Positions 21,571 to 47,884 of a stretch of 64,000 bases of DNA are shown in pieces (positions within the stretch are counted from its first letter, which is position 1; every line of letters begins with the position of its first letter). The stretch is taken from NCBI RefSeq assembly GCF_002563715.1, contig NZ_PDJJ01000001.1:2914001-2978000 (forward strand), given 5' to 3'. Both the position numbers and the translations under genes were made by a program. This stretch comes from Isoptericola jiangsuensis. GTDB lineage: Bacteria > Actinomycetota > Actinomycetes > Actinomycetales > Cellulomonadaceae. A model generated the notes under the pieces. That model saw only the letters and a program-made list of their open reading frames with translations. It was not told where the DNA came from and ran no database searches.

Positions 21571-21621
21571 TGTCGAAGCGCTTCGACAGCCGAGTATGTG
21601 CGGGCTCGCGGCTGTCGTCAA
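21571..21621 (-). promoter_or_regulatory. Promoter and LacI-type operator of the alpha-xylosidase gene
   Basis: On the minus strand TTGACG (21616-21621), a 17-bp spacer and CATACT (21593-21598) form a good promoter. The 18-bp perfect palindrome TGTCGAAGCGCTTCGACA (21571-21588) follows right behind the -10 and covers the expected start point. The same core occurs three more times in the window before related genes. Confidence 0.85.
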
Positions 21622-21691
21622 GAGGGGCGGGAGCGGCGGGACGACGCCGGTCGTACCGATTCGAGGCCGGGCCCGCCCGGGACGGCTCCCG

Positions 21692-23791
21692 TCACGGGTC
21701 GCGTGGGTCGAGGACGACGGCGCCGGACGGCGCCAGCACCACCTCACCGGCGACGACCTCCCCCGTCAGGAGGTCGACCGCGGCCCCGGGCACGGGGACC
21801 CGCGCCGCGGAACCGCCGTGGTTGAGCACGAACAGCAGGCCACCGCGACGCACCGCCTCCACGCCCGGCAGGTCGCCCAGCCCGGGCAGCACCCCCTCCA
21901 CCCCGGCGCGGTCGAGCGCCCGGCCGAGCACGCCGGCGAGCACCGCCTCCGGCAGCACGGCCCCCACGTACCAGGCCGCGCCGCCGCCCGCCGGGACGTG
22001 GCGCGTCACCGCGGGCGCACCCGCCAGGTGGCCCTCGGCGAACGTCGCCAGCACCTGCGCGCCGTCGGAGCGCAGCAGCTCGCCGAACGTGGTCGCACGC
22101 GGCGCGTCCGACGCCGCGGCCGCGGACGCCAGGTCCGCGCCCACCGCCAGGGCGACGCCGTCGTCGGGCAGCGGCACCCACTCCTCGCCGCTCACACCCA
22201 GCGTGTCGCGCAGCAGCACCGGGAACCTCCCGGGACGAACCTGCGCGTCGGCGTCCGCGACGCCGCTGAACGGGCCGACGACGAGGCTCGCCCCGCGCCG
22301 GACCGCCGCCTCGAGGCCCAGCGCGGCATCCTCGGTGAGCACGTACGACTGCGGCACCAGGACCACGTCGTAGCCCGTGAGGTCGGCGCCCGGCGGGGCG
22401 AGGTCGACCGCGACGCCCGCCGCCCACAGCGGCCGGTACCAGGCCCGCACCTGGTCGAGCACGCCGAGCCGGGCCGTGGGTCGGGCCTGCTCCTCGGCCG
22501 CCCACCACGACTCCCAGTCGAACAGCAGCACCACGCGCGCCTCGACGCGGCCACCCACCACGGGGCGCAGGCGCCGCAGGTCCGCCCCGAGGCGACGCAC
22601 GCCGGCATGGACCCGGGTGTCCGGGCCCGCGTGGGGCAGCATCGCGGAGTGGAACCGTTCGGCGCCGGCCCGCGACGCCCGCCACTGGAAGAAGCACACG
22701 CCGTCCGCGCCGCGGGCCACCGCCTGCAGCGACTCCAGCCGGGAGCGGTCGGGACTCTTGGTGAGGTTGTGCTCGCGCCAGCTCACCGCGGCGGTCGCCT
22801 GCTCCATGAGCACCCACGGGTCGCCCCCGCCGAGCGACCGGACGAGGTCCTGCACCAGCGCGGAGTCGGCCGGGGCGTGCGGGTCGCCGGGGTCGGGGTA
22901 CTGGTCGTCGGCGACGACGTCGAGGTCGCCCGCCCACGACCAGTAGTCGACCAGGGGGAAGAACCCCATGAAGTTCGTCGTCACGGGGACGTCGGGGTCG
23001 GCCGCCCGGATCACGTCGCGCTGCTCGCGGTAGAGGTCGAGCAGCAGGTCCGAGGAGTAGCGCCGGAAGTCGAGGGCCTGCGTCGGGTTGACGTGGTAGA
23101 CCATGCGTCGCGGCGGCAGGATCTCGTCGAACGAGCCGTAGGCCTGCGACCAGAACGTGGTGCCCCACGCCTCGTTGAGCCGCTCCAGGGTCCCGTAGCG
23201 GGTACGCAGCCAGTCGCGGAACCGCGCGGCGGACTCGTCGCCGTGGCACACCTGGCCGAACTCGTTGCCGACATGCCACATCCGCACCGCCGGGTGCCCG
23301 GCGTACCGGGCGACCAGGTCGCGGGTGATCGCGAGCGCGTGGTCCCGGTACACCTGGGACGCCGGGGAGAAGTGGTTGCGCGACCCGGCCACCAGCCGGA
23401 CGCCGTCGACGTCGACGGGCAGGGTCTCGGGGTACCGGTGCCCGAGCCAGGCGGGCGGCGACGCCGTCGGGGTGGCGAGGTCGACGGCGACCCCGGCGGC
23501 GTGCAGGACGTCGAGGACCTCGTCGAGCCACGCGAAGTCGCGCACGCCGGGGCTCGGCTCGTAACGGGCCCACGAGAACACGCCGACCGTGACGAGGTTG
23601 ACCCCGGCCTCGCGCATGAGCCGGGCGTCCTCGCGCCAGACGTCGGGACCCCACTGCTCGGGGTTGTAGTCGCCGCCGTGGAGCAGGCCGAGGTCGTCGG
23701 TCAGCGCGGCGAAGCGCCCTGCTCCGGCGGGGCGGGCGGACGTCGCCGTCCCGCCGGTCCTGCTCGCCGTCGTCCGCTCCGTGCTCGGCAC
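21692..23791 (-). CDS. GH42 beta-galactosidase
   Basis: The GTG at 23791 is chosen because GAGGAGG precedes it by 5 bp. The product has 699 residues with GGDYNPEQWG at the start, the acid/base Glu177 in GNEFG and the nucleophile Glu330 in WVLMEQ, all normal for GH42. No signal peptide. GH42 enzymes release terminal beta-galactose from oligosaccharides. It is divergent from the GH95 gene with a shared TCGAAGCGCTTCGA operator, so in this setting its likely substrate is the galactosyl side chain of xyloglucan oligosaccharides. The substrate is inferred. Confidence 0.93.
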   Translation of the reverse strand: MPSTERTTASRTGGTATSARPAGAGRFAALTDDLGLLHGGDYNPEQWGPDVWREDARLMREAGVNLVTVGVFSWARYEPSPGVRDFAWLDEVLDVLHAAGVAVDLATPTASPPAWLGHRYPETLPVDVDGVRLVAGSRNHFSPASQVYRDHALAITRDLVARYAGHPAVRMWHVGNEFGQVCHGDESAARFRDWLRTRYGTLERLNEAWGTTFWSQAYGSFDEILPPRRMVYHVNPTQALDFRRYSSDLLLDLYREQRDVIRAADPDVPVTTNFMGFFPLVDYWSWAGDLDVVADDQYPDPGDPHAPADSALVQDLVRSLGGGDPWVLMEQATAAVSWREHNLTKSPDRSRLESLQAVARGADGVCFFQWRASRAGAERFHSAMLPHAGPDTRVHAGVRRLGADLRRLRPVVGGRVEARVVLLFDWESWWAAEEQARPTARLGVLDQVRAWYRPLWAAGVAVDLAPPGADLTGYDVVLVPQSYVLTEDAALGLEAAVRRGASLVVGPFSGVADADAQVRPGRFPVLLRDTLGVSGEEWVPLPDDGVALAVGADLASAAAASDAPRATTFGELLRSDGAQVLATFAEGHLAGAPAVTRHVPAGGGAAWYVGAVLPEAVLAGVLGRALDRAGVEGVLPGLGDLPGVEAVRRGGLLFVLNHGGSAARVPVPGAAVDLLTGEVVAGEVVLAPSGAVVLDPRDP

Positions 23792-23826
23792 CGTCGCCTC
23801 CTCGCGTCGTCGCCGCGACACCGCTG

Positions 23827-23854
23827 TCGAAGCGCTTCGAGCGCACGCTAGCCT
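23827..23854. promoter_or_regulatory. Shared divergent promoter and LacI-type operator (GH42 and GH95 genes)
   Basis: TCGAAGCGCTTCGA lies at 23827-23840. On the plus strand TAGCCT (23849-23854) is a -10 that would start transcription at or next to the ATG at 23861, a leaderless mRNA. On the minus strand TAGCGT (23845-23850) is a -10, with TGGACA (23869-23874) as the -35 at 18 bp. One operator therefore serves both directions. Confidence 0.8.
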
Positions 23855-23860: not shown

Positions 23861-26656
23861 ATGCCGGGTGTCCAGCGTCGCCACCAGCCCCGTCCCGCCT
23901 CCCCGGGCAGCGCCCGCGGCCCTGCCGCGCCGACCGCCCCCGCCGTGCCCCCCGAGGCCCCGCCACGCGCCGAGGCCGGGCCGACGACGGACCCGCACCC
24001 GCCGGCCGACGGCCCCGACGACCTGCACCGGCTCTGGTACGACGCCCCCGCCACGACCTGGCTCGAGGCCCTGCCCGTCGGCAACGGCCACCGTGCCGCG
24101 ATGTGCGCGGGCCGCCCCGGCACCGAGCACCTGTGGCTCAACGACGGCACCGCCTGGTCCGGGCGCCCCGACCCCGACCCCCTCGCGGGCGTCCGGGCCC
24201 GCGGGCCCGAGCACCTCGCCGCGGTACGGCGCGCCCTCGACGACGGCGACGTCCGCGAGGCCGAGCGCCTGCTCGCCGCGATGCAGTCCCCCTGGTCGCA
24301 GGCGTACCTCCCGCTCGCGGAGGCCGACGTCGCCGTCACGGCCGCCGACCCGCCCGGCGACGACGACGCGCAGGAGGCCGGCGATGACGGCGCGCGGGCG
24401 CCCGGAGCGTCCGGCGCCGGGGAGCGCGGCGCCGCGGTGCGTGAGCTCGACCTGCGCACCGGGGTCGCCACGCACCGCTGGTGGACGCCCGCGACCGGCG
24501 GCGTCGTCCAGGAGACCTGGGCCGACGCGACCGGCGGCGCGCTCGTCCACACCGTGCGCGCGGAGCGACCCGTGCGCGTCACCGTGCGGGTGGAGAGCCT
24601 GCTGCGCACGTCGGGCTCCCCCGACCCCGCGCTCACGCCGGACGCCTCCGGCGACCTCGCGCACGTCGTGGACCTGCCCGTCGACGTCCCGCCGGGGCAC
24701 GCGCCGGGCGGGAGCGTCGTCCGCTACGCCGACGACGGCCGCCACGGCGTCGTCGTGGTGCGGGCGGTCGGGGACGCCGGGGCCGACGTCACCGGCGGCA
24801 TGCTGCGCACCGGTGCGGCCACCACCCACGTCCTGCTCGTCGCGACCGCGACGACCGACCCGCCCGGCGACCCGGTCGGACCCGTCGCCGAGCGCCTCGC
24901 GGCCCAGCTCGACCCGCGCCCGGCACGGGTCGGCACGGACGCCGGGGCGGAGCCCGGGGCACGTGCCGGGGCCGTCCGCGAGCGCCTGCGCGCCGCCCAC
25001 GTGGCGGCGCACCGGGAGCTGTACGACCGGGTGCGGCTGGTGCTGCCGTCGGCGGAGGGCGCCGCCGACCTGCCGACGGACCGGCGGGTCACGGCGGCGG
25101 AGCACCGCCCGGACCCGGGGCTGGCGGCGCTGGTGTTCCACCACGGGCGCTACCTGCTGCTGTCGTCGTCGCGGCCGGGCGGGCTGCCGGCGACGTTGCA
25201 GGGGCTGTGGAACCCGTGGCTGCCGGGCCCGTGGAGCAGCGCGTACACGCTGAACATCAACCTGCAGATGGTCTACTGGGCGGCCGAGCCGACGGGGCTG
25301 GCGGAGTGTCACGAGCCGTTGCTGGCGTTCGTGCGGCGTCTCGCGCGGGGGCCGGGGGCGCGGGTGGCGGCGGACCTGTACGGGGTGCGCGGCTGGACGG
25401 CGCACCACAACGCGGACGCGTGGGGGCACGCGGCGCCGGTGGGTGCGGGCGAGGGCGACGCGTCGTGGGCGGCGTGGGCGTCGGCGGGCTGGTGGCTGGT
25501 GCAGCACCTGGTGGAGCACCACCGGTTCGCGGCGGACCGGGAGGCGGCGGACGCGGTGCTGCGGGAGTCGTGGGACGTGCTGCGCGGGGCGGCGCTGTTC
25601 GCCCTCGACTGGGCGCGGCCCGCCGCGTCCGCTCCGCGAGGTGGCACCTCCGGTCGTGGGGTCGTGCCCCCGGGGTACGACCTCTTGGCTGCAGGTACGA
25701 CCTCGCGGGCGACGGCGCGGCTGAGCCCGTCGACGTCCCCGGAGAACACGTTCGTCGCGCCGGACGGGGCGCCTGCGGCGGTGACGGCGGACGCGACGAT
25801 GGACGTGGCGCTGGTGCGCTCGCTGGCGGCCGCGTGCGGGGAGGTCGCGGCGCTGCTGGGCGGGGACGAGGCCGCCGAGCCGTGGGTGGACGAGCTGGCG
25901 ACCCTTGCGGCGGCGCTGCCGGAGCATCGCGTGGGGCCGCGGGGCGAGCTGCTGGAGTGGGGGGCGGAGCTGCCGGAGGCGCAGCCGGAGCACCGGCACC
26001 TGTCGCACCTGGTGGGGCTGTTCCCGCTGGGCGTGCTGGGTCCCGCGACGACGCCGGACCTGGCGACGGCGGCGGGGCGGACCCTGGAGCTGCGGGGCCG
26101 GGAGTCGACGGGCTGGTCGCTGGCGTGGCGGGTGGCGCTGTGGGCGCGGCTCGGGCGGGGCGACCGGGCGCACGAGCAGGTGCGCCTCGCGCTGCGCCCG
26201 GCCGTGGAGGGTGCGGGGCACCGGGGCGGGCTGTACCCGAACCTGTTCAGCGCGCACCCGCCGTTCCAGCTGGACGGGAGCTGCGGGCTGACCGCGGGCG
26301 TGGCCGAGCTGCTGCTGCAGTCCCACCGCGGCTCGCGCGACGTGCCGCACCTGGACGTGCTGCCGGCGCTCCCGGTGGCCTGGCCGGACGGCGAGGTGAC
26401 CGGCCTGCGGGCCCGGGGCGGGCTCCGGGTGGACCTGGCATGGCGGGCCGGGACGCCGGTGCGGGTGGTGCTGCACGCGCCGCGGGGGCGCGACGTGACG
26501 GTGACCCTGGGAAGTTCGCCCGGCCGACCCGCGCCTCCGGGGCCGCTGACGGTCCCGGCCGGGGCTATGTTGACCCTCGACCCCATCAGCCTGACCGACC
26601 CGGCCGACCGGGGCCGCACGGACGCGGCCCCGGGCTCGGCGGTCGCCGCCCCGTGA
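23861..26656 (+). CDS. GH95 alpha-L-fucosidase-type enzyme
   Basis: The protein has 931 residues. A Pro/Ala-rich N-terminal 55 residues is not a signal peptide. The N-terminal beta domain then begins (LWYDAPATTWLEALPVGNG), and the (alpha/alpha)6 barrel contains YTLNINLQMVYW with the paired Asn residues, GWTAHHNADAW, and LSPSTSPENTF with the candidate acid Glu. GH95 enzymes remove alpha-1,2-linked fucose or L-galactose, for example from xyloglucan. About 27 residues inside the barrel (near residue 600) come from a repeat-like insertion. Ten bp separate its stop from the LacI gene, so the two form an operon. The start fits a leaderless transcript. Confidence 0.9.
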   Translation: MPGVQRRHQPRPASPGSARGPAAPTAPAVPPEAPPRAEAGPTTDPHPPADGPDDLHRLWYDAPATTWLEALPVGNGHRAAMCAGRPGTEHLWLNDGTAWSGRPDPDPLAGVRARGPEHLAAVRRALDDGDVREAERLLAAMQSPWSQAYLPLAEADVAVTAADPPGDDDAQEAGDDGARAPGASGAGERGAAVRELDLRTGVATHRWWTPATGGVVQETWADATGGALVHTVRAERPVRVTVRVESLLRTSGSPDPALTPDASGDLAHVVDLPVDVPPGHAPGGSVVRYADDGRHGVVVVRAVGDAGADVTGGMLRTGAATTHVLLVATATTDPPGDPVGPVAERLAAQLDPRPARVGTDAGAEPGARAGAVRERLRAAHVAAHRELYDRVRLVLPSAEGAADLPTDRRVTAAEHRPDPGLAALVFHHGRYLLLSSSRPGGLPATLQGLWNPWLPGPWSSAYTLNINLQMVYWAAEPTGLAECHEPLLAFVRRLARGPGARVAADLYGVRGWTAHHNADAWGHAAPVGAGEGDASWAAWASAGWWLVQHLVEHHRFAADREAADAVLRESWDVLRGAALFALDWARPAASAPRGGTSGRGVVPPGYDLLAAGTTSRATARLSPSTSPENTFVAPDGAPAAVTADATMDVALVRSLAAACGEVAALLGGDEAAEPWVDELATLAAALPEHRVGPRGELLEWGAELPEAQPEHRHLSHLVGLFPLGVLGPATTPDLATAAGRTLELRGRESTGWSLAWRVALWARLGRGDRAHEQVRLALRPAVEGAGHRGGLYPNLFSAHPPFQLDGSCGLTAGVAELLLQSHRGSRDVPHLDVLPALPVAWPDGEVTGLRARGGLRVDLAWRAGTPVRVVLHAPRGRDVTVTLGSSPGRPAPPGPLTVPAGAMLTLDPISLTDPADRGRTDAAPGSAVAAP
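25638..25704 (+). repeat. Palindromic repeat inserted in frame in the GH95 gene
   Basis: GAGGTGGCACCTC (25638-25650) is self-complementary. GTCGTGCCCC and GGGGTACGAC (25661-25681) form a hairpin with one mismatch. GGTACGACCTC occurs twice, at 25674-25684 and 25694-25704. The block encodes a Gly/Pro-rich stretch (RGGTSGRGVVPPGYDLLAAG) just before the conserved SPSTSPEN motif, where family members usually have a short loop. Confidence 0.6.
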
Positions 26657-26666: not shown

Positions 26667-27665
26667 GTGCCCACCATCGAGGACGTCGCGAAGGCGGCCG
26701 GAGTCTCGGCGTCGACGGTCTCCTACGTCCTGTCCGGCAAGCGCTCGATCTCGGGCCCGACGCGCAAGCGGGTCGAGCAGGCCATCGCGGACCTGGGCTA
26801 CCGGCCCCACGCCGGGGCGCGCGCGCTGGCGTCGAGCCGCACGAACGTCATCGGGCTCATGGTGCCGTTGCGTGCGGGGGTCGACGTGTCGGTGGTGATG
26901 CAGTTCGTCACCGGCGTGGTCACGCGGGCGCGCGGCGCGGACCACGACGTGCTGCTGCTGACGCAGGACGACACGGGCGGCCTGGAGCGGGTGGCGGCGG
27001 GGTCGATGGTGGACGCGATCATCGTCATGGACGTGGAGGCCGACGACCCCCGCGTGCCGGTGCTGCGGGGGTTGCGGCAGCCGACGGTGCTCATCGGGCT
27101 GCCGCACGACCCGGCGGGCCTGAGCTGCGTGGACCTGGACTTCGAGGCGGCGGGGCGGCTCGCGGCGGGCCACCTGGCGGACGCGGGCCACCGGGAGGTC
27201 GCGCTGGTCGGTCCGCCGCCGGCGGTGCTGGCGCGGCACACGAGCTACGCGGACCGGGTGATCCGGGGCTGGTCGGCGACGTGCTCGGCGCGCGGTGTGG
27301 CGGGCGTGGTGGAGGCGTGCGAGACGACGCCGGACGGCGCGCGCCGGGCGGTGGACGCGGTGCTGGAGCGGGCTCCGGGCACGACGGGGTTCTTCGTGCA
27401 CAACGAGCAGGCGCTGCCCCACGTGCTGGGCCGGCTCGCGGAGCGGGGGCTGGCCTCGGCGGCGGGCGCTCCGGTGGTGGCCCTGTGCCCGACGGCGGTG
27501 GCGACGGCGCAGGCGGTGCCGCTGACGAGCATCGACATCCCGGGCGAGGTGATCGGCGGGGTCGCCGTCGACATGGTGCTGGCGGGGCTGGACGGGGAGC
27601 GGCCGGCGGAGACCCGTCTGCTGGCGCCGGTCCTGGTCGAGCGCGGGGGCGCGACGACGCCCTGA
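26667..27665 (+). CDS. LacI-family transcriptional regulator of the xyloglucan-type regulon
   Basis: The protein has 332 residues. The N-terminal helix-turn-helix TIEDVAKAAGVSASTVSYVLSG and hinge YRPHAGARALAS are typical LacI; the rest is a periplasmic-binding-protein-like sensor domain. The GTG follows GAGGAGCTGACC. It is co-transcribed with the GH95 gene, whose promoter holds a TCGAAGCGCTTCGA operator, so it is likely to repress itself and the three other units with that site. The inducer is unknown, presumably an oligosaccharide. Assigning the operator to this protein is inference from position. Confidence 0.9.
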   Translation: MPTIEDVAKAAGVSASTVSYVLSGKRSISGPTRKRVEQAIADLGYRPHAGARALASSRTNVIGLMVPLRAGVDVSVVMQFVTGVVTRARGADHDVLLLTQDDTGGLERVAAGSMVDAIIVMDVEADDPRVPVLRGLRQPTVLIGLPHDPAGLSCVDLDFEAAGRLAAGHLADAGHREVALVGPPPAVLARHTSYADRVIRGWSATCSARGVAGVVEACETTPDGARRAVDAVLERAPGTTGFFVHNEQALPHVLGRLAERGLASAAGAPVVALCPTAVATAQAVPLTSIDIPGEVIGGVAVDMVLAGLDGERPAETRLLAPVLVERGGATTP

Positions 27666-27721: not shown

Positions 27722-27793
27722 CGTGCGTCCGCCCGGGGGCCGGAGGGTCCCGGGATGCGGTCGACCCATTGCGCGGCGGCCCTCGTCGGTGAT

Positions 27794-27814
27794 ATCAATT
27801 CGAAGCGCTTCGAC
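27794..27814 (+). promoter_or_regulatory. Promoter -10 and LacI-type operator of the ABC importer operon
   Basis: TCGAAGCGCTTCGA (27801-27814) follows one base behind a possible -10, TATCAA (27794-27799). The spacing of -10 to operator matches the other members of the set. The importer GTG is 41 bp downstream. Confidence 0.8.
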
Positions 27815-27854: not shown

Positions 27855-28892
27855 GTGAGTCTCACGCAGGGAACCCCGGCGGCCACGGGCGCGCCCGCCG
27901 CGACGCAGGCCGCGGCGACCCCGCTGCCCGTCGCCGGACGCGGCACGCCGTCCCGGCGTCCCGGGGGGCGACGCCGCGGCGGGCGCCCGTCGAGCGCCCG
28001 GTCGTCCAAGACGATGTTCCTGCTCGTCGCGCCGTTCCTCGTCCTGGTGTTCCTCTTCTCGTACCTGCCGCTGGCGGGCTGGGCCACGGCGTTCTACGAC
28101 TACAAGCCGGCGCTCGGGCTCGCGGGCAGCGAGTTCGTGGGGCTCCAGTGGTTCGAGATGCTCGTCTCCTCGCCGGTGCAGCTCCAGCAGATCGGGCAGG
28201 TGCTGACCAACACGCTGGCCATGAGCTTCCTCGGGTTCGCCACGTCGCTGCTGCCGGTGTTCTTCGCGATGCTGCTCAACGAGATCCGCGCCCCCTGGTT
28301 CCGCAACGCGGTGCAGACCCTGACGACCCTGCCGAACTTCATCTCGTGGGTGCTGGTCTACCTCATCGCCTTCTCGCTGTTCTCCAGCACGGGCCTCGTG
28401 AACTCGGTGCTCGGCGACTGGGGCCTCATCACCGCGCCGCTCAAGTTCCTCGACACCGACCAGCACGTCTGGCTGACGATGCTGCTCTGGAGCCTGTGGA
28501 AGGGCCTGGGGTGGGGCGCGATCATGTACCTCGCCGCCATCACGTCGATCGACCCGGCGCTGTACGAGTCCGCCCGGATCGACGGGGCCAACCGCTTCCA
28601 GCTCATGCGGTACATCACGTTCCCCCAGCTCATGCCGACGTACGTCGTCCTGCTGGTGCTGTCCATCGCCAACATGCTCAACAACGGGATGGAGCAGTAC
28701 TACGTGTTCCAGAACGCGTTCAACAAGGAGTACATCCAGGTGCTGGACCTGTACGTCTACAACATCGGCATCACGGGCAACAGCCTGTCGATGGCCACCG
28801 CGCTGGGGATGCTCAAGTCCCTGATCTCCGTCCTGCTGCTGGTCGCCGCGAACGCCGTCGCCAAGCGCGCCCGCGGCACCTCGATCATCTGA
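27855..28892 (+). CDS. Carbohydrate ABC importer permease (LplB type)
   Basis: The protein has 345 residues with about six membrane helices after a basic cytoplasmic N-terminus of about 50 residues. The EAA-type loop that contacts the ATPase is visible (LYESARIDGANRFQLMRYITFPQL). Length and motifs match the LplB group of polysaccharide or oligosaccharide permeases. The GTG start is preceded by GGGAGTGACAG. It is first in an operon with a second permease and a solute-binding protein and has the TCGAAGCGCTTCGA operator upstream. No ATPase gene follows. Confidence 0.9.
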   Translation: MSLTQGTPAATGAPAATQAAATPLPVAGRGTPSRRPGGRRRGGRPSSARSSKTMFLLVAPFLVLVFLFSYLPLAGWATAFYDYKPALGLAGSEFVGLQWFEMLVSSPVQLQQIGQVLTNTLAMSFLGFATSLLPVFFAMLLNEIRAPWFRNAVQTLTTLPNFISWVLVYLIAFSLFSSTGLVNSVLGDWGLITAPLKFLDTDQHVWLTMLLWSLWKGLGWGAIMYLAAITSIDPALYESARIDGANRFQLMRYITFPQLMPTYVVLLVLSIANMLNNGMEQYYVFQNAFNKEYIQVLDLYVYNIGITGNSLSMATALGMLKSLISVLLLVAANAVAKRARGTSII

Positions 28893-38117: not shown

Positions 38118-38120
38118 AGA

Positions 38121-40012: not shown

Positions 40013-40049
40013 CCGGGCGGGGCGGCCGGGTCCCGGCCGCCCCGCCCGG
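40013..40049 (-). terminator. Strong hairpin after the solute-binding protein gene
   Basis: Perfect 18-bp arms around a single T (in practice a 3-5 nt loop), just past the stop at 40054 and 108 bp before the GH35 start. It probably lowers, rather than stops, reading into the hydrolase genes; such a hairpin after a binding protein gene is common. Confidence 0.7.
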
Positions 40050-40053
40050 GGCG

Positions 40054-41388
40054 TCACTCGGAGACGGTGAAGCCCTGGTCGTTGCCGTACGCCACCGACT
40101 GCTGCTGCCATGCGGCCAGCCCGTCGGTCAGCGTCGTGCCGGACACGTAGGCCTGGCCGACGGTGTCGTTGAAGATCGAGTTCGCGTACACCTGGAACGG
40201 CAGGTACTGCCAGCCCTCGACGACGTTCGCCGCGGAGTCCGCGAGGACCTCGTTGACCTGCTGGCCGCCGAAGTACTCGAACTCCTTGCCGCGGAACTCG
40301 TCGGACTCGAGCTCGGCGGTCGTCGCGGGGAACGCGCCGCCGTCGACGCGGGTCTGGACGCCGTCGCCGGCGGTCGCGTACTCGACGAACGCGTAGGCGA
40401 GCTCGGCGTTCGCGCTCGCGGCGGGGACGGCGAGCGAGGAGCCGCCGTTCTCGGCGGTGGCGTGCTGGCCGGCCTCCCACTGGGGCATCTCGGCGACGCG
40501 CCACTTGCCGGCACCGGCGGGGACGCCCGACTCGAGGTTGGCGGGCATCCAGGCGCCGATGGTCAGGGTGGCGATGCTGCCGTCGCCGAGGCCCTGGTAC
40601 CACTCGTCGCTCCAGGAGCTGACGGGGGCGAGGAGCTCCTCGTCGACGAGCTGCTGCCAGACCTCGGTGAACGTCGAGGTGCCCTCGTCGCCCGCGAAGT
40701 CGATGGTGACGTCGGTGCCGTCGACCGTGTAGGGCTGGCCGCCGGCCTGCCAGATCATGCTGGTGGTGAACCCGGCGTCGCCGGTGTCGTTGGCGATGTA
40801 CGCCTTCGGGTCGGCCTCGTGGATGGCGCGGGCGGCCTCGAGGTACTCGTCCCAGGTGGTGGGGACGTCCACACCGACCTCGGTGAAGACCTCCTCGTTG
40901 TAGAACAGCGCCATGGGGCCGGAGTCCATCGGCAGGCCGTAGATGCCGTCGCCGCTGCGGACGGAGCCCCACGGGCCGGTGGTGAACGTGCCGTCGAGGG
41001 CGCTCGCGCCGAGGTCGGACAGGTCCGCGAGGGACTCGGAGATCGCGAACTGCGGGACCGCGTAGTACTCGACCTGCGCGACGTCGGGCACGCCGTCGCC
41101 GGCGGCGATCGCGTTCTGCAGCGCGGTGTACTGGTCGTTGCCGGTCCCGACGTTCTCGAGGTTCACGGTGACGTTCGGGTAGGCGGCCTCGAAGTCGGTG
41201 ACGACGTCCTCCAGCGTGGGCTCCCAGGCCCACACGGTGATCTCGCCGCCGGTCTCCAGCACGGAGGCGGTGTCGACGGCCTCGCCGCCGGTGCCGCCGT
41301 CGTCGGTGGAGCTGCACGCGGTGAGCGCGAGGGCGAGGGTGCCCACGAGGGCGGTGCCGCGGATCAGGCGGCGGGGTCGAGCGGTCAT
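40054..41388 (-). CDS. Extracellular sugar-binding lipoprotein (second importer)
   Basis: The product has 444 residues. A signal and lipobox (LALALTAC) come first, and the rest is a family 1 solute-binding fold (EITVWAWEPTLEDVVTDFEA, IYGLPMDSGPMALFYNEEVF). The ATG at 41388 follows GAGGA by six bases. It binds sugars outside the membrane and hands them to the two permeases encoded upstream. The ligand is not known from sequence, but galacto-oligosaccharide is likely from the neighbours. Confidence 0.92.
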   Translation of the reverse strand: MTARPRRLIRGTALVGTLALALTACSSTDDGGTGGEAVDTASVLETGGEITVWAWEPTLEDVVTDFEAAYPNVTVNLENVGTGNDQYTALQNAIAAGDGVPDVAQVEYYAVPQFAISESLADLSDLGASALDGTFTTGPWGSVRSGDGIYGLPMDSGPMALFYNEEVFTEVGVDVPTTWDEYLEAARAIHEADPKAYIANDTGDAGFTTSMIWQAGGQPYTVDGTDVTIDFAGDEGTSTFTEVWQQLVDEELLAPVSSWSDEWYQGLGDGSIATLTIGAWMPANLESGVPAGAGKWRVAEMPQWEAGQHATAENGGSSLAVPAASANAELAYAFVEYATAGDGVQTRVDGGAFPATTAELESDEFRGKEFEYFGGQQVNEVLADSAANVVEGWQYLPFQVYANSIFNDTVGQAYVSGTTLTDGLAAWQQQSVAYGNDQGFTVSE

Positions 41389-41506
41389 GACTGTCCTCAC
41401 TTCGTTGTTCGGTACGGGGTGGGCGGGTGGTGGGGCGTGCGACGGCCGGTGGGCGCCGTGGCCCCGGGGGTCGGTGCGGTGCGGGGGTGCCGGTGGTGCC
41501 GGGCGG

Positions 41507-42463
41507 TCACTCCTTGACGCTCCCGGCGGCCAGGCCGGACTGCCAGAAGCGCTGGAGGAACAGGAACGCGACGACCAGCGGCAGGATGGTCAGGAGCGCG
41601 CCGGTGATGACGAGGTTGAAGATCGCCTCGCCGCCCGCGGTGGCGGCCTGCGCGTTCCACGCGTTGAGGCCGAGCGTGAGCGGGTACCAGGACGAGTCGC
41701 GCAGCATGATCAGGGGCAGGAAGTAGTTGTTCCAGGTCGCGACCGTGGTGAACAGCAGCACGGTGACGATGCCGGGGGCGAGCAGCGGCAGGCTGACGCG
41801 GAAGAAGGTGCGGAACTCGCCGGCGCCGTCGATGCGGGCCGCCTCGAGGAGCTCGCCGGGGATCGCCTCGGCCGCGAAGGTCCACATGAGGTAGAGCCCG
41901 AACGGGGAGATGAGGGACGGCACGATGACGGCCCACGGCGTGTTCGTCAGGCCCATCTGGCTGAACATGAGGAACGTGGGCACGGCGAGCGCGGTGCCGG
42001 GCACCGCGACGGCGCCGATGACGACGGCGAACACGCCGCGCTTGCCGGGGAAGTCGAACTTGGCGAGCGCGTACCCGCCGAGGACGGCGAGGAACGTGGC
42101 GCCGCCGGCACCGAGGACGACGTACAGCACGGTGTTGACGAACCACCGCACGAACACGCCGTCGTCGTAGGCGAGCGTGGCCTGGACGTTGTCCCACAGG
42201 GCGAACGAGTCGCCGAACCACAGGCCGAAGGACGAGAAGAGGTCGGCCTGCGTCTTGGTGGCGTTGATCAGCAGCCACACGAGCGGGACGAGCGCGTAGA
42301 CGAGCACGAGGGTCGTCAGGACGGTGAGCAGCGGGCTCTTGCGGCCGCGGCCGCCGGTGCCGGGGCGCGGGGTGCGCAGGCGCGGGCCGGGGCGGCGGGT
42401 GCTCGGGGCGGGGGTCACGGTGGGAGCGGCGGCGGACGCCGGGACGGGTGCGGGCACGGTCAT
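41507..42463 (-). CDS. Sugar ABC importer permease (MalG type)
   Basis: The protein has 318 residues, with a Pro-rich cytoplasmic N-terminus and six helices. The EAA loop is in LLEAARIDGAGEFRTFFRVSLP. The ATG overlaps the stop of the first permease (ATGA), so the two are co-translated. Confidence 0.93.
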   Translation of the reverse strand: MTVPAPVPASAAAPTVTPAPSTRRPGPRLRTPRPGTGGRGRKSPLLTVLTTLVLVYALVPLVWLLINATKTQADLFSSFGLWFGDSFALWDNVQATLAYDDGVFVRWFVNTVLYVVLGAGGATFLAVLGGYALAKFDFPGKRGVFAVVIGAVAVPGTALAVPTFLMFSQMGLTNTPWAVIVPSLISPFGLYLMWTFAAEAIPGELLEAARIDGAGEFRTFFRVSLPLLAPGIVTVLLFTTVATWNNYFLPLIMLRDSSWYPLTLGLNAWNAQAATAGGEAIFNLVITGALLTILPLVVAFLFLQRFWQSGLAAGSVKE

Positions 42464-43380
42464 GCCTCCTTGCGCATGCCGCGCAGCTGCACCACGTAGG
42501 CGACCACCATGGTGATCAGGCCCATGATGATGGCGACGGTCGCGGAGTAGTTGTACTGCTGGCCGGAGAACGACAGCGAGTAGGCGTACAGGTTCGGGGT
42601 GAAGGACGTCGTGATCGCGTTCGGCGCGAGGCTCTGGAGGATGCTGGGCTCGTTGAAGAGCTGGAAGCTGCCGATGATCGAGAAGATCGTCGCGATGACC
42701 AGCGCCCCGCGGATGGCGGGCAGCTTGATGGCCGTGATGACGCGCCACTGCCCGGCACCGTCGATCTCCGCGGCCTCGTACAGGGAGTGCGGCACGACGC
42801 GCAGCGCGGAGTAGAAGATCAGCATGTTGTAGCCGACGAACTCCCAGGTGACGATGTTGCCGATGGAGGCCAGCACGAGGTCGGGCGACAGCGGGTTCGG
42901 CAGGCTGGTGCCGAGCAGGTCGTTGAGGTTGCCGACCAGCCCGAACCGGGTGCCGTACATGAAGCCCCACATGAGCGTGGCCACGACGGCGGGCACCGCG
43001 TAGGGCATGAAGATCGAGATGCGGAAGAAGCTCGTGCCGTAGAGGCGGCCGCTGTCGAGGGCGAGCGCCACGAGCAGGGCGATGCCGAGCATGATCGGCA
43101 CCTGGACGACGAGGAACAGGCCGACGCGGGCGACGCCGTCCCAGAACTGCGGGTCGCCGAGGGCGCGGGCGTAGTTGTCGAGGCCCACGAACTGCGTGCC
43201 GCCGACCATCTGGGTGCGGAACACCGACAGGTACAGCGAGTACGCGATGGGGGCGAGGAACACGAGGGTGAACACGGCCATGAAGGGGCCGACGAACATC
43301 CATCCCGTCCACCGCCGTCTGCCGGCGCGGTGGGCGACGGGGTTCGTGCTCGCCGTCGTCGGCGGAGACGTCGTCGTCAT
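42460..43380 (-). CDS. Sugar ABC importer permease (MalF type)
   Basis: The protein has 306 residues and six helices. The EAA loop is in LYEAAEIDGAGQWRVITAIKLP. The ATG at 43380 follows GGAAGAAG. It is the first gene of the leftward operon that continues with the second permease, binding protein, GH35, GH30 and GH43. Two LacI-type operators lie directly upstream. Confidence 0.93.
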   Translation of the reverse strand: MTTTSPPTTASTNPVAHRAGRRRWTGWMFVGPFMAVFTLVFLAPIAYSLYLSVFRTQMVGGTQFVGLDNYARALGDPQFWDGVARVGLFLVVQVPIMLGIALLVALALDSGRLYGTSFFRISIFMPYAVPAVVATLMWGFMYGTRFGLVGNLNDLLGTSLPNPLSPDLVLASIGNIVTWEFVGYNMLIFYSALRVVPHSLYEAAEIDGAGQWRVITAIKLPAIRGALVIATIFSIIGSFQLFNEPSILQSLAPNAITTSFTPNLYAYSLSFSGQQYNYSATVAIIMGLITMVVAYVVQLRGMRKEA

Positions 43381-43403
43381 CACTTCTTCCTTGGGCTGAC
43401 TGG

Positions 43404-43419
43404 ATGTTGACGTGAACAT
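43404..43419. promoter_or_regulatory. LacI-type operator 1, galactan operon
   Basis: ATGTTGACGTGAACAT is a near-palindrome (mismatch at one position per half), 24 bp before the first permease. Its centre is 34 bp from that of operator 2. Confidence 0.75.
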
Positions 43420-43437
43420 CGCAGCCGTGGCGTATCG

Positions 43438-43453
43438 ATGTTTACGTAAACAT
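43438..43453. promoter_or_regulatory. LacI-type operator 2, galactan operon
   Basis: ATGTTTACGTAAACAT is a perfect 16-bp palindrome between the permease gene and the divergent LacI gene. A possible -10 for the LacI gene (TAGGCT, 43458-43463) lies immediately after it, so the regulator probably controls itself as well as the operon. Confidence 0.85.
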
Positions 43454-43540
43454 GGACTAGGCTCATCGTGCATCGCCCCCGGCGAGCCGTCAAGTCACGG
43501 TCTGGTGACGACGCCCGCGGACCATCGAAGAGGAGAGCAC

Positions 43541-44647
43541 GTGAGCGACCCGGGACCGCGCCCCAGCGGCGCGTCGACCGACACCGCCCCGGCGGACGAG
43601 CCGACCACGGCCGCACGCCGCGGACGCCCCGCCGGACGCGTCCAGCGCGTCTCCATGGCCGACGTCGCCCAGCTCGCCGGGGTCTCCTCGCAGACCGTGT
43701 CCCGCGTCGCCAACGGCCACCCCAGCGTCGTGGAGACCACCCGCCGGCAGGTCCTCGACGCCATGCGACAGCTCGGCTACCGGCCCAACAGCGCCGCCCG
43801 CGCGCTGCGCTCCGGCCGGTTCCGCACGATCGGCGTCATCCTCTTCACGCTGTCCACCACCGGCAACGTGCGCACCCTCGAGGCCATCGCGACCTCCGCC
43901 GCCGCCGAGGGGTACGCCATCACCGTCATCCCCGTCGAGGCCCCCACCCAGGACGGCGTCAACGGCGCGTTCACCCGCCTCGGCGAGCTCGCCGTCGACG
44001 CCGTCATCCTGCTCATGGAGGTCCACCTCCTCGACGCCGCCAGCGTGTCCCTGCCCACCGACGTGCCCGTCGTCGTCGCCGACTCCGACGCCGGCGACCG
44101 CTACCCCGTGGTCGACACCGACCAGGCCGCCGGGTCCCGCGTCGCCGTGGAGCACCTGCTCGGGCTCGGCCACGAGACGGTCGTGCACCTCGCCGGACCC
44201 GTCGGGTCGTACGCCGGGCAGCGCCGCGAGGACGCCTGGCGCCAGGCGCTGCTCGACGCCGGACGCACCGTGCCACCCGTGCGCCGCGGCGACTGGTCCG
44301 CGGCCTCCGGCTACGAGGTCGGGCTCGAGATCGCCCGGACCGACGCGACCGCCGTGTTCGCCGCGAACGACCAGATGGCGCTCGGCCTGCTGCGGGCCCT
44401 CGCGGAGAGCGGCCGCCGCGTCCCGGCCGACGTCAGCGTCGTCGGGTTCGACGACGTCCCCGACGCCGTCGCGTTCCTGCCGCCCCTGACCACCGTCCAC
44501 CAGGACTTCGCGGAGGTCGGGCGGCGCCTCGTCACCGGGGTGCTGCGCCAGCTCGCCGAGCACACGACACCGCACGGCACCACGCTGGTGCCGACGCGGC
44601 TCGTCGAGCGCGCGAGCACCGCGCCCGCACCCGGCCGGACCACCTGA
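43541..44647 (+). CDS. LacI-family regulator of the galactan operon
   Basis: The GTG at 43541 is chosen because AGGAGAG precedes it. The product has 368 residues: a basic Ala/Pro-rich arm of about 35 residues, then the helix-turn-helix VSMADVAQLAGVSSQTVSRVANG, hinge YRPNSAARALRSG and a sensor domain ending FDDVPDAVAFLPPLTTV. It is divergent from the importer operon with two matching operators between. The inducing sugar is unknown. Confidence 0.92.
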   Translation: MSDPGPRPSGASTDTAPADEPTTAARRGRPAGRVQRVSMADVAQLAGVSSQTVSRVANGHPSVVETTRRQVLDAMRQLGYRPNSAARALRSGRFRTIGVILFTLSTTGNVRTLEAIATSAAAEGYAITVIPVEAPTQDGVNGAFTRLGELAVDAVILLMEVHLLDAASVSLPTDVPVVVADSDAGDRYPVVDTDQAAGSRVAVEHLLGLGHETVVHLAGPVGSYAGQRREDAWRQALLDAGRTVPPVRRGDWSAASGYEVGLEIARTDATAVFAANDQMALGLLRALAESGRRVPADVSVVGFDDVPDAVAFLPPLTTVHQDFAEVGRRLVTGVLRQLAEHTTPHGTTLVPTRLVERASTAPAPGRTT

Positions 44648-44651: not shown

Positions 44652-44677
44652 CCCCGCTCACTCCCCCGAGTGCGGGG
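44652..44677. terminator. Small hairpin at the convergent ends of the LacI and DUF624 genes
   Basis: CCCCG and CACTC pair with GAGTG and CGGGG across a 4-nt loop with one bulged T. It overlaps the DUF624 stop codon. It is the only candidate terminator in the 10-bp gap. Confidence 0.45.
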
Positions 44678-45305
44678 AGACGGGCTCGAGCTCCGACGGG
44701 TCGGCCCGGCGCCGCCGGAACACCCCGTGCAGCAGCAGGGCCAGCAGGTAGGCGCCGAACGACAGGCCGATCGTCGCCGCGAGGAACCCCGTCACCGGCA
44801 CGAGGTAGACGACGCACGCGCCGGTCACGGGTAGCAGCACCAGCCCGAGCGTGCGCGCCGGCTCGACCAGCGGCAGCAGCAGCGCGTTGCGCAGGCACCG
44901 GCGCAGCGGCGCGTCGAACCACGCGACCAGCGCGAACCCGTACAGCGTCGCGGCGAACCCGAAGGTCGCGGCGAGGACCGACAGCGCCCCCGCCACGGCC
45001 GTGAGCAGACCGCCCAGGTTGAGCCAGAACACGGCGCTGAACACCAGCATCAGCGTCGGCACGCCCAGGGCCAGCAGCACCCCGGTGCCCCGCCACAGGT
45101 TCGTCCGCAGCGCCCGCAGGTAGCCGCGCACGAGGTCGCCGCGCTCCTCGTCGGCATACCGCAGGGTCACCTCGAGCAGGGCGCTCGTCGCGGCCCCGAC
45201 CGTCACGACGGGCAGGCAGGTCACCAGGTACAGCACGTTGAGCACCACGAACAGCACGAACGTGGAGATCCCCTGGACCTGGCGCCCGTCGGGGTCGATC
45301 CTCAC
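44658..45305 (-). CDS. DUF624 (YesL-like) membrane protein
   Basis: The protein has 215 residues with about five membrane helices (TFVLFVVLNVLYLVTCLPVVTVGAATSALL is the first pair). The GTG overlaps the stop of the GH3 gene (GTGA). DUF624 proteins commonly sit beside polysaccharide-degrading enzymes and LplB-type importers, but their function is not known. It would share the GH3 promoter and its TCGAAGCGCTTCGA operator. Confidence 0.85.
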   Translation of the reverse strand: MRIDPDGRQVQGISTFVLFVVLNVLYLVTCLPVVTVGAATSALLEVTLRYADEERGDLVRGYLRALRTNLWRGTGVLLALGVPTLMLVFSAVFWLNLGGLLTAVAGALSVLAATFGFAATLYGFALVAWFDAPLRRCLRNALLLPLVEPARTLGLVLLPVTGACVVYLVPVTGFLAATIGLSFGAYLLALLLHGVFRRRRADPSELEPVSPHSGE

Positions 45306-47815
45306 CGCGCGTCCCCGACGGCGAGGACGGTGCGCACGGGCAGGTCGACGCTGGAGGGCCCGGCAGCGACGACGTACTCCCCCGGCTGCACCCGCAGCGC
45401 GCCGTCCAGCATCCCCGGCCCGTCCGCGTGCCACACCGCCAGGCGGGTGACGTCGACCGGCACGTCGACCACGGCCTCCGTCCCCGGCTCCAGCCGGACG
45501 CGCCGGTAGCCCAGCAGCAGCCGGACCGGTGTCGGCACGGCGACGTCGGCGCACCCGAGCGAGTACACCTGGACCAGCTCCTCGACGGCCCGCGACCCCG
45601 CGTTGGCCACGCGCACCCGCACCGTGACGACTCCCGGGGACGCCGGGTCCGCGGGGTGCAGCGGCGGGTGGTCGCGGGTCGGGGCCGGTGCGGCGACGGC
45701 GTCCGCCGACACCTCGACCCCGGCGTAGCGCACCGCGCCGTAGGTCAGGCCGTGCCCGAACGCGAAGGCCGGCACCCCCGTGGCATCCGCCGGCAGGTGC
45801 CGGTAGGTGACCTGCTGGCGGCGGGTGTCGTAGTCGAACAGGTCGCCCGCCTGCTCGGGGCGTGCGGGCCACGTCTGCGCCAGCCGGCCCGTGGGCTCGA
45901 CGGCCCCCGTGAGGACGTCGACGAGCCCGTGGCCGAGCTCCTGGCCGCCGTGGCTGCTCCACACCACCGTCGCGGCGTCCGCCACGCCCGGGCCGAGCAC
46001 GTACGGGTAGCTCGACACCAGGGTGAGCACCGCCCGCGGGTTGGCCTCGACCGCGGCACGCCACGTCCCGACCTCCGCCTCCGGGAGGAACAGGTGCGGG
46101 CGGTCCTGCGTCTCGCGGCCGCCCAGGTGCGGGTCGTTGCCGACCGCGACGAGCACCGTGTCGCAGCGCCCCGCGACCTCGGCCACCCGGGCCGCGCCCG
46201 ACTCGAGCGTCCGCACGACGAACCGCTCCGCCTCCGCCAGGGTGCGCGCCTCGGCGCACACCGCGCCCGTCCCGCGCTGGACCCGCACCCAGCGGCCCGA
46301 GCCCAGGTGCAGCAGCGACCACGAGCCGTCCGCGTGGACGTGGCGGCGGAAGCTCTCCTGCACCTCCCAGCCGCCCACCCTCGCGGCGTCGGCGCGCATC
46401 GGCCACGCTCCGCCGGTGAGCAGCCCGCCCGAGGCCTGCGACCGCAGCGTGAGCACGCCGTCGCCGCGGTCCGCCACCTCGAACCGGCACTCCTTGCCCG
46501 CCACCGCTCCGTCCGCGACGACCCGCTCCCCCGCGTCCGACACCGCCACGTACCGGCCGTCGGTCGTCCGCAGCGCCACGACGTCCGCGCCCGAGGCGAC
46601 CTCGACCCGGTCCGCGCCCCACCGTTCCCGCACGGCGTCCGCGAGCGTCACCACGTAGGGCGGCGTGCCCGAGTACCAGTCGGTGAGCACCGCGTCCGCC
46701 AGCGGACCGACCACCGCGACCGACCCCGTGGGGGTCAGCGGGAGCACGTGGTCGTCGTCGCGCAGCACCACCACACCCTTGGCCGCGGCCTCGCGGGCGA
46801 GCTCCCGGTGCGCGGGCAGGTCGAGGTCGTCGGCGCCGATCCCCGCGTACGGGTCCGCGCCGGGCCCGTCCAGCTCGCCGGTGCGGATCCGCAGCTCCAG
46901 CAGGCGCAGCACGGCGGCGTCCACGTCGTCGTCGGTGAGCAGGCCGCGCTCCAGCGCCTCGGTGACCCGGGCGATCGTGAGGTGGGAGGCCGCGTCGTCG
47001 TCGGTGAACGAGTCCACGCCCGCCCGCAGCATCGCGGCGGCACCGCCGGCCCGGTCGGCGGCGGCCCGCTGGAGGGTGACGAGGAACGTGGGGGCCGCGG
47101 CGTCCGAGACGACGGCGACCGACCGGTCCGTCCAGGACCGCAGCTCGGCCAGCAGCTCGTCCTGGAGGTGCGCGGGGACGCCGTTGACCCGGTTGTAGGC
47201 GGGCATGACCGCGGCGACGGCACCGGAGGCGACGGGCTCGCGGAACGCCGCCAGCTCCTCCTCGTGCAGGGTCCGCGGCGGGAGGTCCGACGACGTCGAG
47301 GAGCGGTCGGTCTCGTTGTTGTAGGCGAGGAAGTGCTTGAGGGTCGGCGCGGTCTTCCACACGCGCTCGTCCTCGCCCCGCAGGCCGCGGCAGTACGCCG
47401 CCCCGAGGTGACCGGTGAGGTGCGGGTCCTCGGAGTACCCCTCCTCGTTGCGTCCCCAGGCGGGATGGCGCAGCGTGTTGACGACCGGCGCCCACACGTT
47501 GAGGCTGACCGTCGGGTCGGCGGCGTGCTTGGCCCGCACCTCGGTGGCCACCGCGTCGCCGACGCGGCGCAGCAGGTCGGGGTCCCAGGCGGCCGCGAGG
47601 CCGACGGGCTGCGGGAACACCGTGGCGGTGCCGAGCCAGGCGACGCCGTGGAGGACCTCGCACCCGGTGTGGAACCGCGCCAGCCCGAGCCGGTCGACGG
47701 CGGGCATCCGCTGGTGCAGCATCGCCACCCGTTCGGCACGGGTCAGGCGGTCGAGCAGGTCCCGGGCTCGCGCGGGGGCGGGCAGCAGGTGGTCACGGAA
47801 GGCCGGCACGTCCAT
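45302..47815 (-). CDS. GH3 glycoside hydrolase with a beta-trefoil-like insertion
   Basis: The protein has 837 residues and no signal peptide. The GH3 barrel contains KHFLAYNNETDR (residues 160-171) and the nucleophile Asp238 in VVSDAAA. The second domain is interrupted at residues about 410-540 by a block resembling fascin-type trefoils (ALRTTDGRYVAVSDAG, LRSQASGGLLTGG, GRWVRVQRGTG). This is where many GH3 enzymes carry PA14. A C-terminal fibronectin-III-like domain ends it. Specificity is not clear: beta-glucosidase or beta-xylosidase are both possible. Control by the shared operator suggests action on xyloglucan-derived oligosaccharide. Confidence 0.9.
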   Translation of the reverse strand: MDVPAFRDHLLPAPARARDLLDRLTRAERVAMLHQRMPAVDRLGLARFHTGCEVLHGVAWLGTATVFPQPVGLAAAWDPDLLRRVGDAVATEVRAKHAADPTVSLNVWAPVVNTLRHPAWGRNEEGYSEDPHLTGHLGAAYCRGLRGEDERVWKTAPTLKHFLAYNNETDRSSTSSDLPPRTLHEEELAAFREPVASGAVAAVMPAYNRVNGVPAHLQDELLAELRSWTDRSVAVVSDAAAPTFLVTLQRAAADRAGGAAAMLRAGVDSFTDDDAASHLTIARVTEALERGLLTDDDVDAAVLRLLELRIRTGELDGPGADPYAGIGADDLDLPAHRELAREAAAKGVVVLRDDDHVLPLTPTGSVAVVGPLADAVLTDWYSGTPPYVVTLADAVRERWGADRVEVASGADVVALRTTDGRYVAVSDAGERVVADGAVAGKECRFEVADRGDGVLTLRSQASGGLLTGGAWPMRADAARVGGWEVQESFRRHVHADGSWSLLHLGSGRWVRVQRGTGAVCAEARTLAEAERFVVRTLESGAARVAEVAGRCDTVLVAVGNDPHLGGRETQDRPHLFLPEAEVGTWRAAVEANPRAVLTLVSSYPYVLGPGVADAATVVWSSHGGQELGHGLVDVLTGAVEPTGRLAQTWPARPEQAGDLFDYDTRRQQVTYRHLPADATGVPAFAFGHGLTYGAVRYAGVEVSADAVAAPAPTRDHPPLHPADPASPGVVTVRVRVANAGSRAVEELVQVYSLGCADVAVPTPVRLLLGYRRVRLEPGTEAVVDVPVDVTRLAVWHADGPGMLDGALRVQPGEYVVAAGPSSVDLPVRTVLAVGDAR

Positions 47816-47862
47816 GGGTCTCCTTCGGGCCGCGACGGTGCGGCAAGACGGGGCGCCCGATG

Positions 47863-47884
47863 TCGAAGCGCTTCGACCACGCTA
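47863..47884 (-). promoter_or_regulatory. Promoter and LacI-type operator of the GH3-DUF624 operon
   Basis: TCGAAGCGCTTCGA (47863-47876) is located 2 bp behind a -10 (TAGCGT on the minus strand, 47879-47884). TTGCCC (47903-47908) is a possible -35 at 18 bp. The arrangement nearly repeats that of the GH42 promoter. Confidence 0.82.

Follow-up and report, generated by a model that had tools for sequence, protein, structure and literature searches.

Does a short palindrome that recurs in front of carbohydrate genes in the soil actinobacterium Isoptericola jiangsuensis mark a regulon for the use of xyloglucan, a polysaccharide of plant cell walls, and which regulator reads it? The question is raised by a stretch of 64,000 nucleotides (contig NZ_PDJJ01000001.1, positions 2,914,001 to 2,978,000; hereafter the window), in which the 14-bp palindrome TCGAAGCGCTTCGA accompanies genes for glycoside hydrolases (GH), an importer and a LacI-family regulator. 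We consider it highly probable that the LacI protein encoded at 26667-27665 uses this palindrome as its operator and thereby represses a regulon for xyloglucan utilisation. The computed observations that speak for this reading are the sites, the gene families behind them, a promoter-like layout, conservation in relatives and a matching LacI recognition helix.

Operator copies in the window and the genome

The genome searched (G000) is a single contig of 4,041,252 bases. Within the window, TCGAAGCGCTTCGA was found in four exact copies (O1 to O4, Table 1), with no other copy at up to two mismatches. The whole 4.04-Mb genome holds five exact copies, the fifth lying 2.3 Mb from the window (C1:679581, the same as L001:9582), and no one-mismatch copy; a reversed control pattern gave three copies at up to one mismatch. 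For one genome, 0.008 exact copies are expected under a zero-order model, none of 100 dinucleotide shuffles reached the four copies of the window, and among 630 palindromes formed from the same seven half-site letters TCGAAGCGCTTCGA occurred four times in the window and the next-ranked one not at all. All five exact operators adjoin carbohydrate genes on the upstream side, and the word is an even palindrome with a central CG at the promoters of the putatively regulated genes, which is the form described for LacI regulons (PMC4052901). Most LacI-family operator motifs are given there as 16-22 nt, longer than the 14-bp core found here.

These searches, together with the shuffles and Pfam, bear out a preliminary description of the locus according to which four copies of the palindrome each precede a carbohydrate gene. 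The 18-bp word TGTCGAAGCGCTTCGACA, which encloses the first operator, lies at 21571-21588; of the coordinates given earlier, those at 23827 and 47863 stand, and the third site is shifted by one position, starting at 27800 and not 27801. The proposed four-site regulon has to be enlarged, as the genome holds five exact sites. The core GAAGCGCTTC occurs ten times in the genome; six copies lie in promoters of this regulon and the other four inside open frames. Three of these four were read, two of them resembling pieces of ribosomal proteins by eye, and the fourth is at window position 63093 within the open reading frame (ORF) 62691-63827.

Genes behind the operators

The gene-family calls made earlier were confirmed by Pfam, and the statement that the enzymes lack signal peptides is consistent with the N-termini as judged by eye. 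Overlooked in the earlier list of units was the GH1 beta-glucosidase gene that follows GH31, whose likely start, by eye, is near 19018. By their families, GH31, GH42 and GH1 would provide cytoplasmic alpha-xylosidase, beta-galactosidase and beta-glucosidase activities, with GH3 added by family alone. For GH95, the Protein Data Bank (PDB) matches comprise 2rdy and 4ufc, from whose names a specificity cannot be read, and the fucosidase-named 8zbv, 7znz and 2eab. The protein encoded at 26667-27665 combines an N-terminal LacI helix-turn-helix (HTH) with a periplasmic-binding-like sensor domain, and its gene is probably under O2 itself because it lies directly behind GH95. The probable solute-binding lipoprotein of the ATP-binding cassette (ABC) importer had no matches in Pfam, NCBIfam or PDB, and no ATPase gene for the importer was found among the ORFs scanned. 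Several other scanned ORFs gave no family match and may be wrong frames or proteins of no assigned family.

The fifth exact operator lies just upstream of a gene for a GH5 endoglucanase with CBM_X2 and CBM46 carbohydrate-binding modules and, by eye, a signal peptide. Its top PDB match is 4v2x, named Bacillus halodurans Cel5B in a corrigendum. The genome also encodes one GH74-type protein (C1:1452296-1455037), 78% identical to that of the relative G008, and the PDB matches of the GH74 proteins are named xyloglucanases. This gene had been set down as lacking an operator, a statement that was dropped once its upstream region was read: it holds TCGAAGCGCTTCAC, with two mismatches to the operator at the outer end of one half, and the same word stands in the same place before the GH74 gene of relative G003. 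The GH74 site is likely a real operator; GH5 at an exact and GH74 at a two-mismatch operator are candidates for co-regulated secreted endo-xyloglucanases. The xyloglucan assignment of the preliminary description therefore gains support from outside the window, namely from the fifth site before GH5-CBM46 and from the GH5 and GH74 genes of relatives, in addition to the equivalog score of GH31. Its wording of a complete set of enzymes applies only if genes outside the window are counted, and does not apply to the window alone.

From these data we infer LacI binding, repression, an inducer and the enzyme specificities as follows. Without inducer, LacI would occupy the core promoters of six transcription units at the five exact operators: GH31-GH1, GH42 and GH95-lacI (both at O2), the importer, GH3-DUF624 and the distant secreted GH5-CBM_X2-CBM46. 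A seventh unit, GH74, would probably join through its two-mismatch operator. The secreted GH5 and GH74 would cut plant xyloglucan, the importer would take up the oligosaccharides, and a xyloglucan-oligosaccharide fragment would probably release LacI. In the cytoplasm, GH95 may then remove fucose (or L-galactose), GH42 galactose, GH31 xylose and GH1 or GH3 glucose, in alternating rounds.

Promoter layout

In the four promoters of the window listed in Table 1, the operator begins 1-6 bp past a -10-like hexamer, with a -35-like hexamer 17-18 bp further up. When promoters were scored with a scheme of our own, 33 sites of the genus reached a mean of 8.86, compared with 7.03 (standard deviation 0.95) for shuffled upstream sequences; for the 17 sites with one-sided targets, the side facing the gene scored 8.44 and the opposite side 6.91. 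Such layouts would fit repression. The rule put forward earlier, that the operator follows a -10 hexamer at 1 to 6 bp, holds for GH31, GH42, the importer and GH3 and fails on the GH95 side of the second site.

In the GH95 direction, the order is operator, 8 nt, TAGCCT (plus strand, 23849-23854), 6 nt and the ATG at 23861, and this TAGCCT overlaps the TAGCGT of GH42 on the minus strand at GCTAGC. A wrong GH95 start was suspected, as the plus-strand score before O2 is 6.0, lower than the shuffled mean, and this suspicion was dropped. The ATG at 23861 was kept because six of the nine GH95 upstream regions read (the window, L080, L103, L091, L089 and L100) share an operator followed by N5 or N8, TAGCCT, N6 and ATG; those of L083, L099 and L085 lack this layout. 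In four of the six, the weaker word TCGAAGCGTTTCAA takes the place of the operator. The pattern suggests that the GH95-lacI mRNA is probably leaderless, with the operator over the -35 region.

Conservation in relatives

The palindrome search in related genomes that had been proposed as a check was run and found the same operator before the same kinds of gene. Of 18 genus genomes, 13 have the exact site and none the reversed control; some LacI match (E 1e-40) is present in 17, a match of at least 56% identity (lineage A, that of the window LacI) in 13, and the exact site together with lineage A in 12. Outside G000, a gene of the regulon set starts at most 350 bp downstream of 32 of the 33 genus sites. 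The operator precedes a GH5 homologue in G000, G003, G004, G005 and G011 and a GH74 homologue in G007, G008, G009 and G012; Pfam domains were checked for the GH5 protein of G000 and the GH74 proteins of G007, G008 and G009. Six of the 33 sites have the importer binding-protein gene SBPa behind them, and in several loci this gene heads a permease-permease-GH31 operon. No SBPa match was found in G000 at E 1e-20, in a search that had no positive control.

Across the family, 107 of 221 genomes carry the exact site, compared with 6 of 221 for the reversed control (counted from the table of results). The sample from other genera comprises 40 regions with 44 sites, and at 42 of these sites a gene of the set follows at a distance of at most 350 bp. 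By label, these were GH74 (10), LacI (9), SBPa (6), GH5 (5), LacI|SBPa (4), GH3 (3), SBP2 (2), and one each of GH42, GH3|SBPb and GH42|LacI; with the LacI-only and SBP2 labels left aside, the count is 31 of 44. SBPa genes lie beyond LacI in six regions (L106, L109, L110, L112, L115 and L125), and in each of the genomes G042, G053, G057 and G062 both GH5 and GH74 stand behind the operator. The two misfits are L129, where GH3 is slightly further off, and L141, where a TatA-like gene follows. The xyloglucan assignment is backed by these comparisons because the operator precedes a GH5 homologue, a GH74-type gene, or both in relatives.

The sample of other genera consists of all listed sites of G019-G062 and one of the three G063 regions; G063:C4 and G063:C6 are outside it, as are the sites listed for G066-G105 and every unlisted site. 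Queries for GH74 and the solute-binding proteins were taken from site-bearing loci of the genus, so that the gene set was partly learned there; the other genera played no part in choosing it. Additionally, among the 32 loci that encode a LacI relative (L039-L070), 27 hold the exact operator, compared with 1 of 32 for the best other permuted palindrome; the 32 exclude the seven weakest of 39 loci, which carry no operator. Seven of these loci (L039-L044 and L046) are genus genomes again and four (L047, L048, L050 and L052) recur in the sample of other genera, so the permutation result and the counts of downstream genes are not independent.

Two single loci may be recorded here. At L141:4001, the exact site before the TatA-like gene (identified by eye) may be due to chance or to control of protein export. 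At L145, the space between lacI and a solute-binding-protein gene holds two exact operators (4001 and 4025) at a distance of 24 bp from each other.

Which LacI protein reads the operator

The genome contains 28 LacI-type HTH matches, and the recognition helix VSASTVSYVLSGKR is found in one of them, the window LacI. Its STVSY motif is present in all 31 LacI rows compared from site-bearing regions (one row being a duplicate). These proteins fall into lineage A, lineage B (31-36% identical to the window LacI) and lineage C (40-44%), and in some loci, such as L056, the operator is kilobases away from lacI. The operator alone names no binder, because lineages B and C adjoin the same operator at 31-44% identity.

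Seven LacI paralogues of the genus (L032-L038; 39-41% identical) carry the helix STASY instead of STVSY, and in three of their seven loci (L032, L033 and L036) a perfect palindrome, TGTGAGCGCTCACA, lies just behind the STASY LacI gene, near position 2567. This would fit a joint change of helix and operator. In a quick tree, the STASY paralogues join lineage C with a modest support of 85; four duplicates were dropped from the LacI trees. An earlier claim that the site-linked LacI proteins form one clade came from a first tree that lacked the 39-41% paralogues and counted the site-less L104, and it was dropped because the STASY lineage nests inside once the seven paralogues are added. A tblastn search of the LacI protein against plasmids listed five matches at 35-52%, with one more record in the 60-80% band.

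Alternative explanations

A number of observations weigh against the proposed regulon or parts of it. At the level of sites, the reversed core is as frequent in the genome as GAAGCGCTTC (10 each), and two-mismatch words, exact copies included, number 32 compared with 25 for the reversed control, which is not clear enrichment; because neither these words nor the cores are clearly enriched, the case for the GH74 site comes from its position, the intact core and the copy in G003. Some sites, those of GH74 and GH3|SBPb among them, have promoter scores close to those of shuffled sequences. At the level of genomes, a lineage-A LacI (56%) is encoded in G014 but no exact site is present there, and in G015 the exact site lies beside a 34% LacI, with lineage B the only one represented. 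At L094:5997 (G010), the exception among the genus sites, what follows is no more than the C-terminal, carbohydrate-binding portion of a GH5-like gene, and this GH5-side site is probably a decayed copy. Additionally, the best PDB matches of GH3 are beta-xylosidases as well as beta-glucosidases, with isoprimeverose-producing enzymes lower among the matches.

It is very improbable that the palindrome arose by chance or as a structural repeat and regulates nothing: 2 of the 44 sites in the sample of other genera and 1 of the 33 in the genus lack a fitting gene start, but the copies far exceed the chance expectation, their promoter position is conserved across genera and the family-wide count exceeds that of its reversed control. 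It is improbable as well, though less so, that the operator is real and mainly bound by one of the 27 other LacI proteins of the strain, the neighbouring LacI acting elsewhere. The number of LacI-type HTH matches in the genome would allow this, as would the presence of lineages B and C beside the same operator in relatives and the TVSY shared by two of the strain's own LacI proteins, L165 and L168. Neither of these two, however, has STVSY...SGKR, and the STVSY-LSGKR helix occurs in no other LacI of the strain; the window LacI is the only one of G000 to match at E 1e-40, its gene follows GH95 behind the operator, and lineage A is present in 12 of the 13 genus genomes with the exact site.

Somewhat more room, although still little, is left for a regulon that serves a broader diet of beta-glucan and cello-oligosaccharides, of which xyloglucan would be one part and in which GH5-CBM46 would act mainly on mixed-linkage glucan. 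For enzymes of the GH5_4 type with CBM46 (BlCel5B and BhCel5B), cleavage of both xyloglucan and beta-glucan is reported (PMC4817029), and both GH1 and GH3 are generic enzymes. However, GH74 is the commonest label at the operators of other genera, and the GH6 and GH48 cellulase genes of this strain bear a different motif. To our knowledge, it is not obvious what a YicI-type alpha-xylosidase, GH95 or GH74 would do on mixed-linkage glucan, which also counts against the broader diet. Altogether, a xyloglucan regulon repressed by the window LacI remains the preferred reading.

Relation to known systems

The xyloglucan loci of Cellvibrio japonicus, Xanthomonas and Bacteroides ovatus reportedly follow the same enzyme logic, with an alpha-xylosidase and backbone-cutting enzymes, and are said to belong to Gram-negative bacteria with outer-membrane uptake and other regulators. 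A regulatory precedent is GloR of Thermotoga maritima, a LacI-family protein predicted to control the xyloglucan-oligosaccharide cluster gloR<>gloEFGKL-cel74-fucAI (PMC3750489). As a prediction, a LacI-controlled xyloglucan locus is therefore not new in kind. Both systems have a LacI-family regulator, importer genes, a GH74-type enzyme (Cel74 there) and a fucosidase-type enzyme, and a CelR site lies beside the GloR site there, just as the GH74 gene here bears the operator and a cellulase-type motif. However, the T. maritima genes form one local cluster, whereas six or seven units at three genome places are involved here, with GH31, GH42, GH95, GH1, GH3 and GH5; the likeness is one of locus descriptions, not of aligned proteins or operators.

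In Ruminiclostridium cellulolyticum, the xyloglucan genes Ccel_2451-2455 with a divergent importer cluster (PMC4780118, PMC8576529) likewise combine signal-less cytoplasmic GH31, GH3 and GH42 with extracellular xyloglucanases, and the ABC importer has no ATPase gene nearby (PMC4780118). Regulation there is by the two-component activator XygS/XygR (PMC8576529), in contrast to the LacI protein and 14-bp operator here, where GH95 and GH1 are also added. No regulator of the XygS/XygR type was found between 17.5 and 47.9 kb, where two LacI proteins were the regulators among the scanned ORFs (not every small ORF was covered). The axuABC-xylS locus of Caldicellulosiruptor bescii resembles the present one in its CUT1-type importer and cytoplasmic alpha-xylosidase and differs in its AraC-family regulators (PMC8579813). 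These two Firmicutes examples of xyloglucan or alpha-xyloside use thus have two-component or AraC regulators (PMC8576529, PMC8579813).

The actinobacterial CebR/CelR cellulose regulons have a LacI-family repressor and the 14-bp palindrome TGGGAGCGCTCCCA (PMC5332605, PMC3377646), and share with this system the central AGCGCT and a mixture of secreted enzymes, importer and intracellular glucosidases. All five exact sites here read TCGAAGCGCTTCGA, however, and not TGGGAGCGCTCCCA, with two changes per half-site; in addition, the targets here would serve xyloglucan use, and the GH6 and GH48 genes of this strain carry CTAAACGNTTC (operators, not proteins, were compared). LacI repressors with 14-bp palindromes, and xyloglucan import with cytoplasmic trimming, are hence already known kinds. 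Neither this operator nor an actinobacterial case of LacI and xyloglucan was found in the titles and abstract openings of the papers listed, with subscription papers and regulon databases outside the search. The listed literature matches to the operator contained the 10-mer only, and the one in PMC5332605 is a CebR variant site.

Neighbouring features

The span 21571-47884, described earlier as one regulon, deserves that name at the units behind the four operators and not at 31766-44647, which forms a unit apart, encoding a LacI of its own and lacking the operator. Its gene content suggests that it serves the use of type II arabinogalactan. Beside the GH3 gene, an amidohydrolase gene (PF01979; window 47963-49246) stays next to GH3 or LacI in many loci of relatives.

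A second LacI-type motif, CTAAACGNTTC, has five copies in G000, compared with none of its reversed control. Four of the five lie by GH74, GH6, GH48 and CBM2-GH6 genes, the remaining one is next to a gene for a peptidase M3, and a LacI is encoded close by at 1462110. The motif is similar to one reported for C. flavigena (PMC3377646) and probably marks a cellulase regulon. The GH74 gene of G000 carries both CTAAACGNTTC and the xyloglucan operator and, if this holds true, would read out two diets.

Table 1. Coordinates of operators, promoters and genes in the window, and of sites elsewhere in the genome
Feature	Position	Strand	Remarks
Operator O1	21573-21586	.	before GH31-GH1; exact palindrome
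Operator O2	23827-23840	.	common to divergent GH42 and GH95-lacI
Operator O3	27800-27813	.	before importer
Operator O4	47863-47876	.	before GH3-DUF624
GH31 promoter	-10 CATACT 21593-21598; -35 TTGACG 21616-21621	-	TTGACG-17-CATACT-6-operator
GH42 promoter	-10 TAGCGT 23845-23850	-	TGGACA-18-TAGCGT-4-operator
Importer promoter	-10 TATCAA 27793-27798; -35 TTGCGC 27769-27774	+	TTGCGC-18-TATCAA-1-operator
GH3 promoter	-10 TAGCGT 47879-47884; -35 TTGCCC 47903-47908	-	TTGCCC-18-TAGCGT-2-operator
Distant GH5 promoter		gene strand	TTGACA-17-GAGCAT-8-operator
GH1 beta-glucosidase	17549-19192	-	TIGR03356, 587.2 bits (cut-off 478.5); directly downstream of GH31, same direction
GH31 alpha-xylosidase, YicI type	19196-21469	-	NCBIfam equivalog, 1217.8 bits (cut-off 606); PDB match YicI
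GH42 beta-galactosidase	21692-23791	-	Pfam
GH95, alpha-L-fucosidase or alpha-L-galactosidase	23861-26656	+	Pfam; probably leaderless transcript
LacI-family regulator	26667-27665	+	PF00356, 65.5 bits (cut-off 27); PF13377, 67.2 bits (cut-off 26.5)
ABC importer permease 1	27855-28892	+	BPD_transp_1
ABC importer permease 2	28908-29897	+	BPD_transp_1
Probable solute-binding lipoprotein of importer	29927-31684	+	signal with lipobox by eye
DUF624 protein	44658-45305	-	Pfam; overlaps GH3 stop
GH3 enzyme	45302-47815	-	GH3 N, GH3 C and Fn3-like domains
Separate unit	31766-44647		GH43 and GH30 proteins with CBM5/12, Big_4, ricin-type and F5/8 domains; GH35; permeases
Solute-binding protein of separate unit	40054-41400		
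Second LacI	about 43643-44647		on the other strand
CTAAACGNTTC sites (L179-L183)	C1:1455163, 1461224, 1465048, 1916800, 3323828		G000

Implications

The use of xyloglucan by actinobacteria gains a concrete candidate regulator and operator. The operator also allows proteins such as the importer lipoprotein, the DUF624 protein and the importers of relatives to be assigned to the regulon. A wider proposal, which we regard as evenly poised, is that the operator and not the proteins is the conserved unit: one 14-bp word would mark xyloglucan genes from Cellulomonadaceae (in the GTDB sense) into Nocardiopsidaceae, Microbacteriaceae and Demequinaceae, its readers would be three LacI lineages, and the secreted enzyme behind it would be of the GH5_4-CBM46 type, the GH74 type or both. 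The regulon would then be a case of an operator outliving changes of the regulator lineage and of the enzymes behind it.

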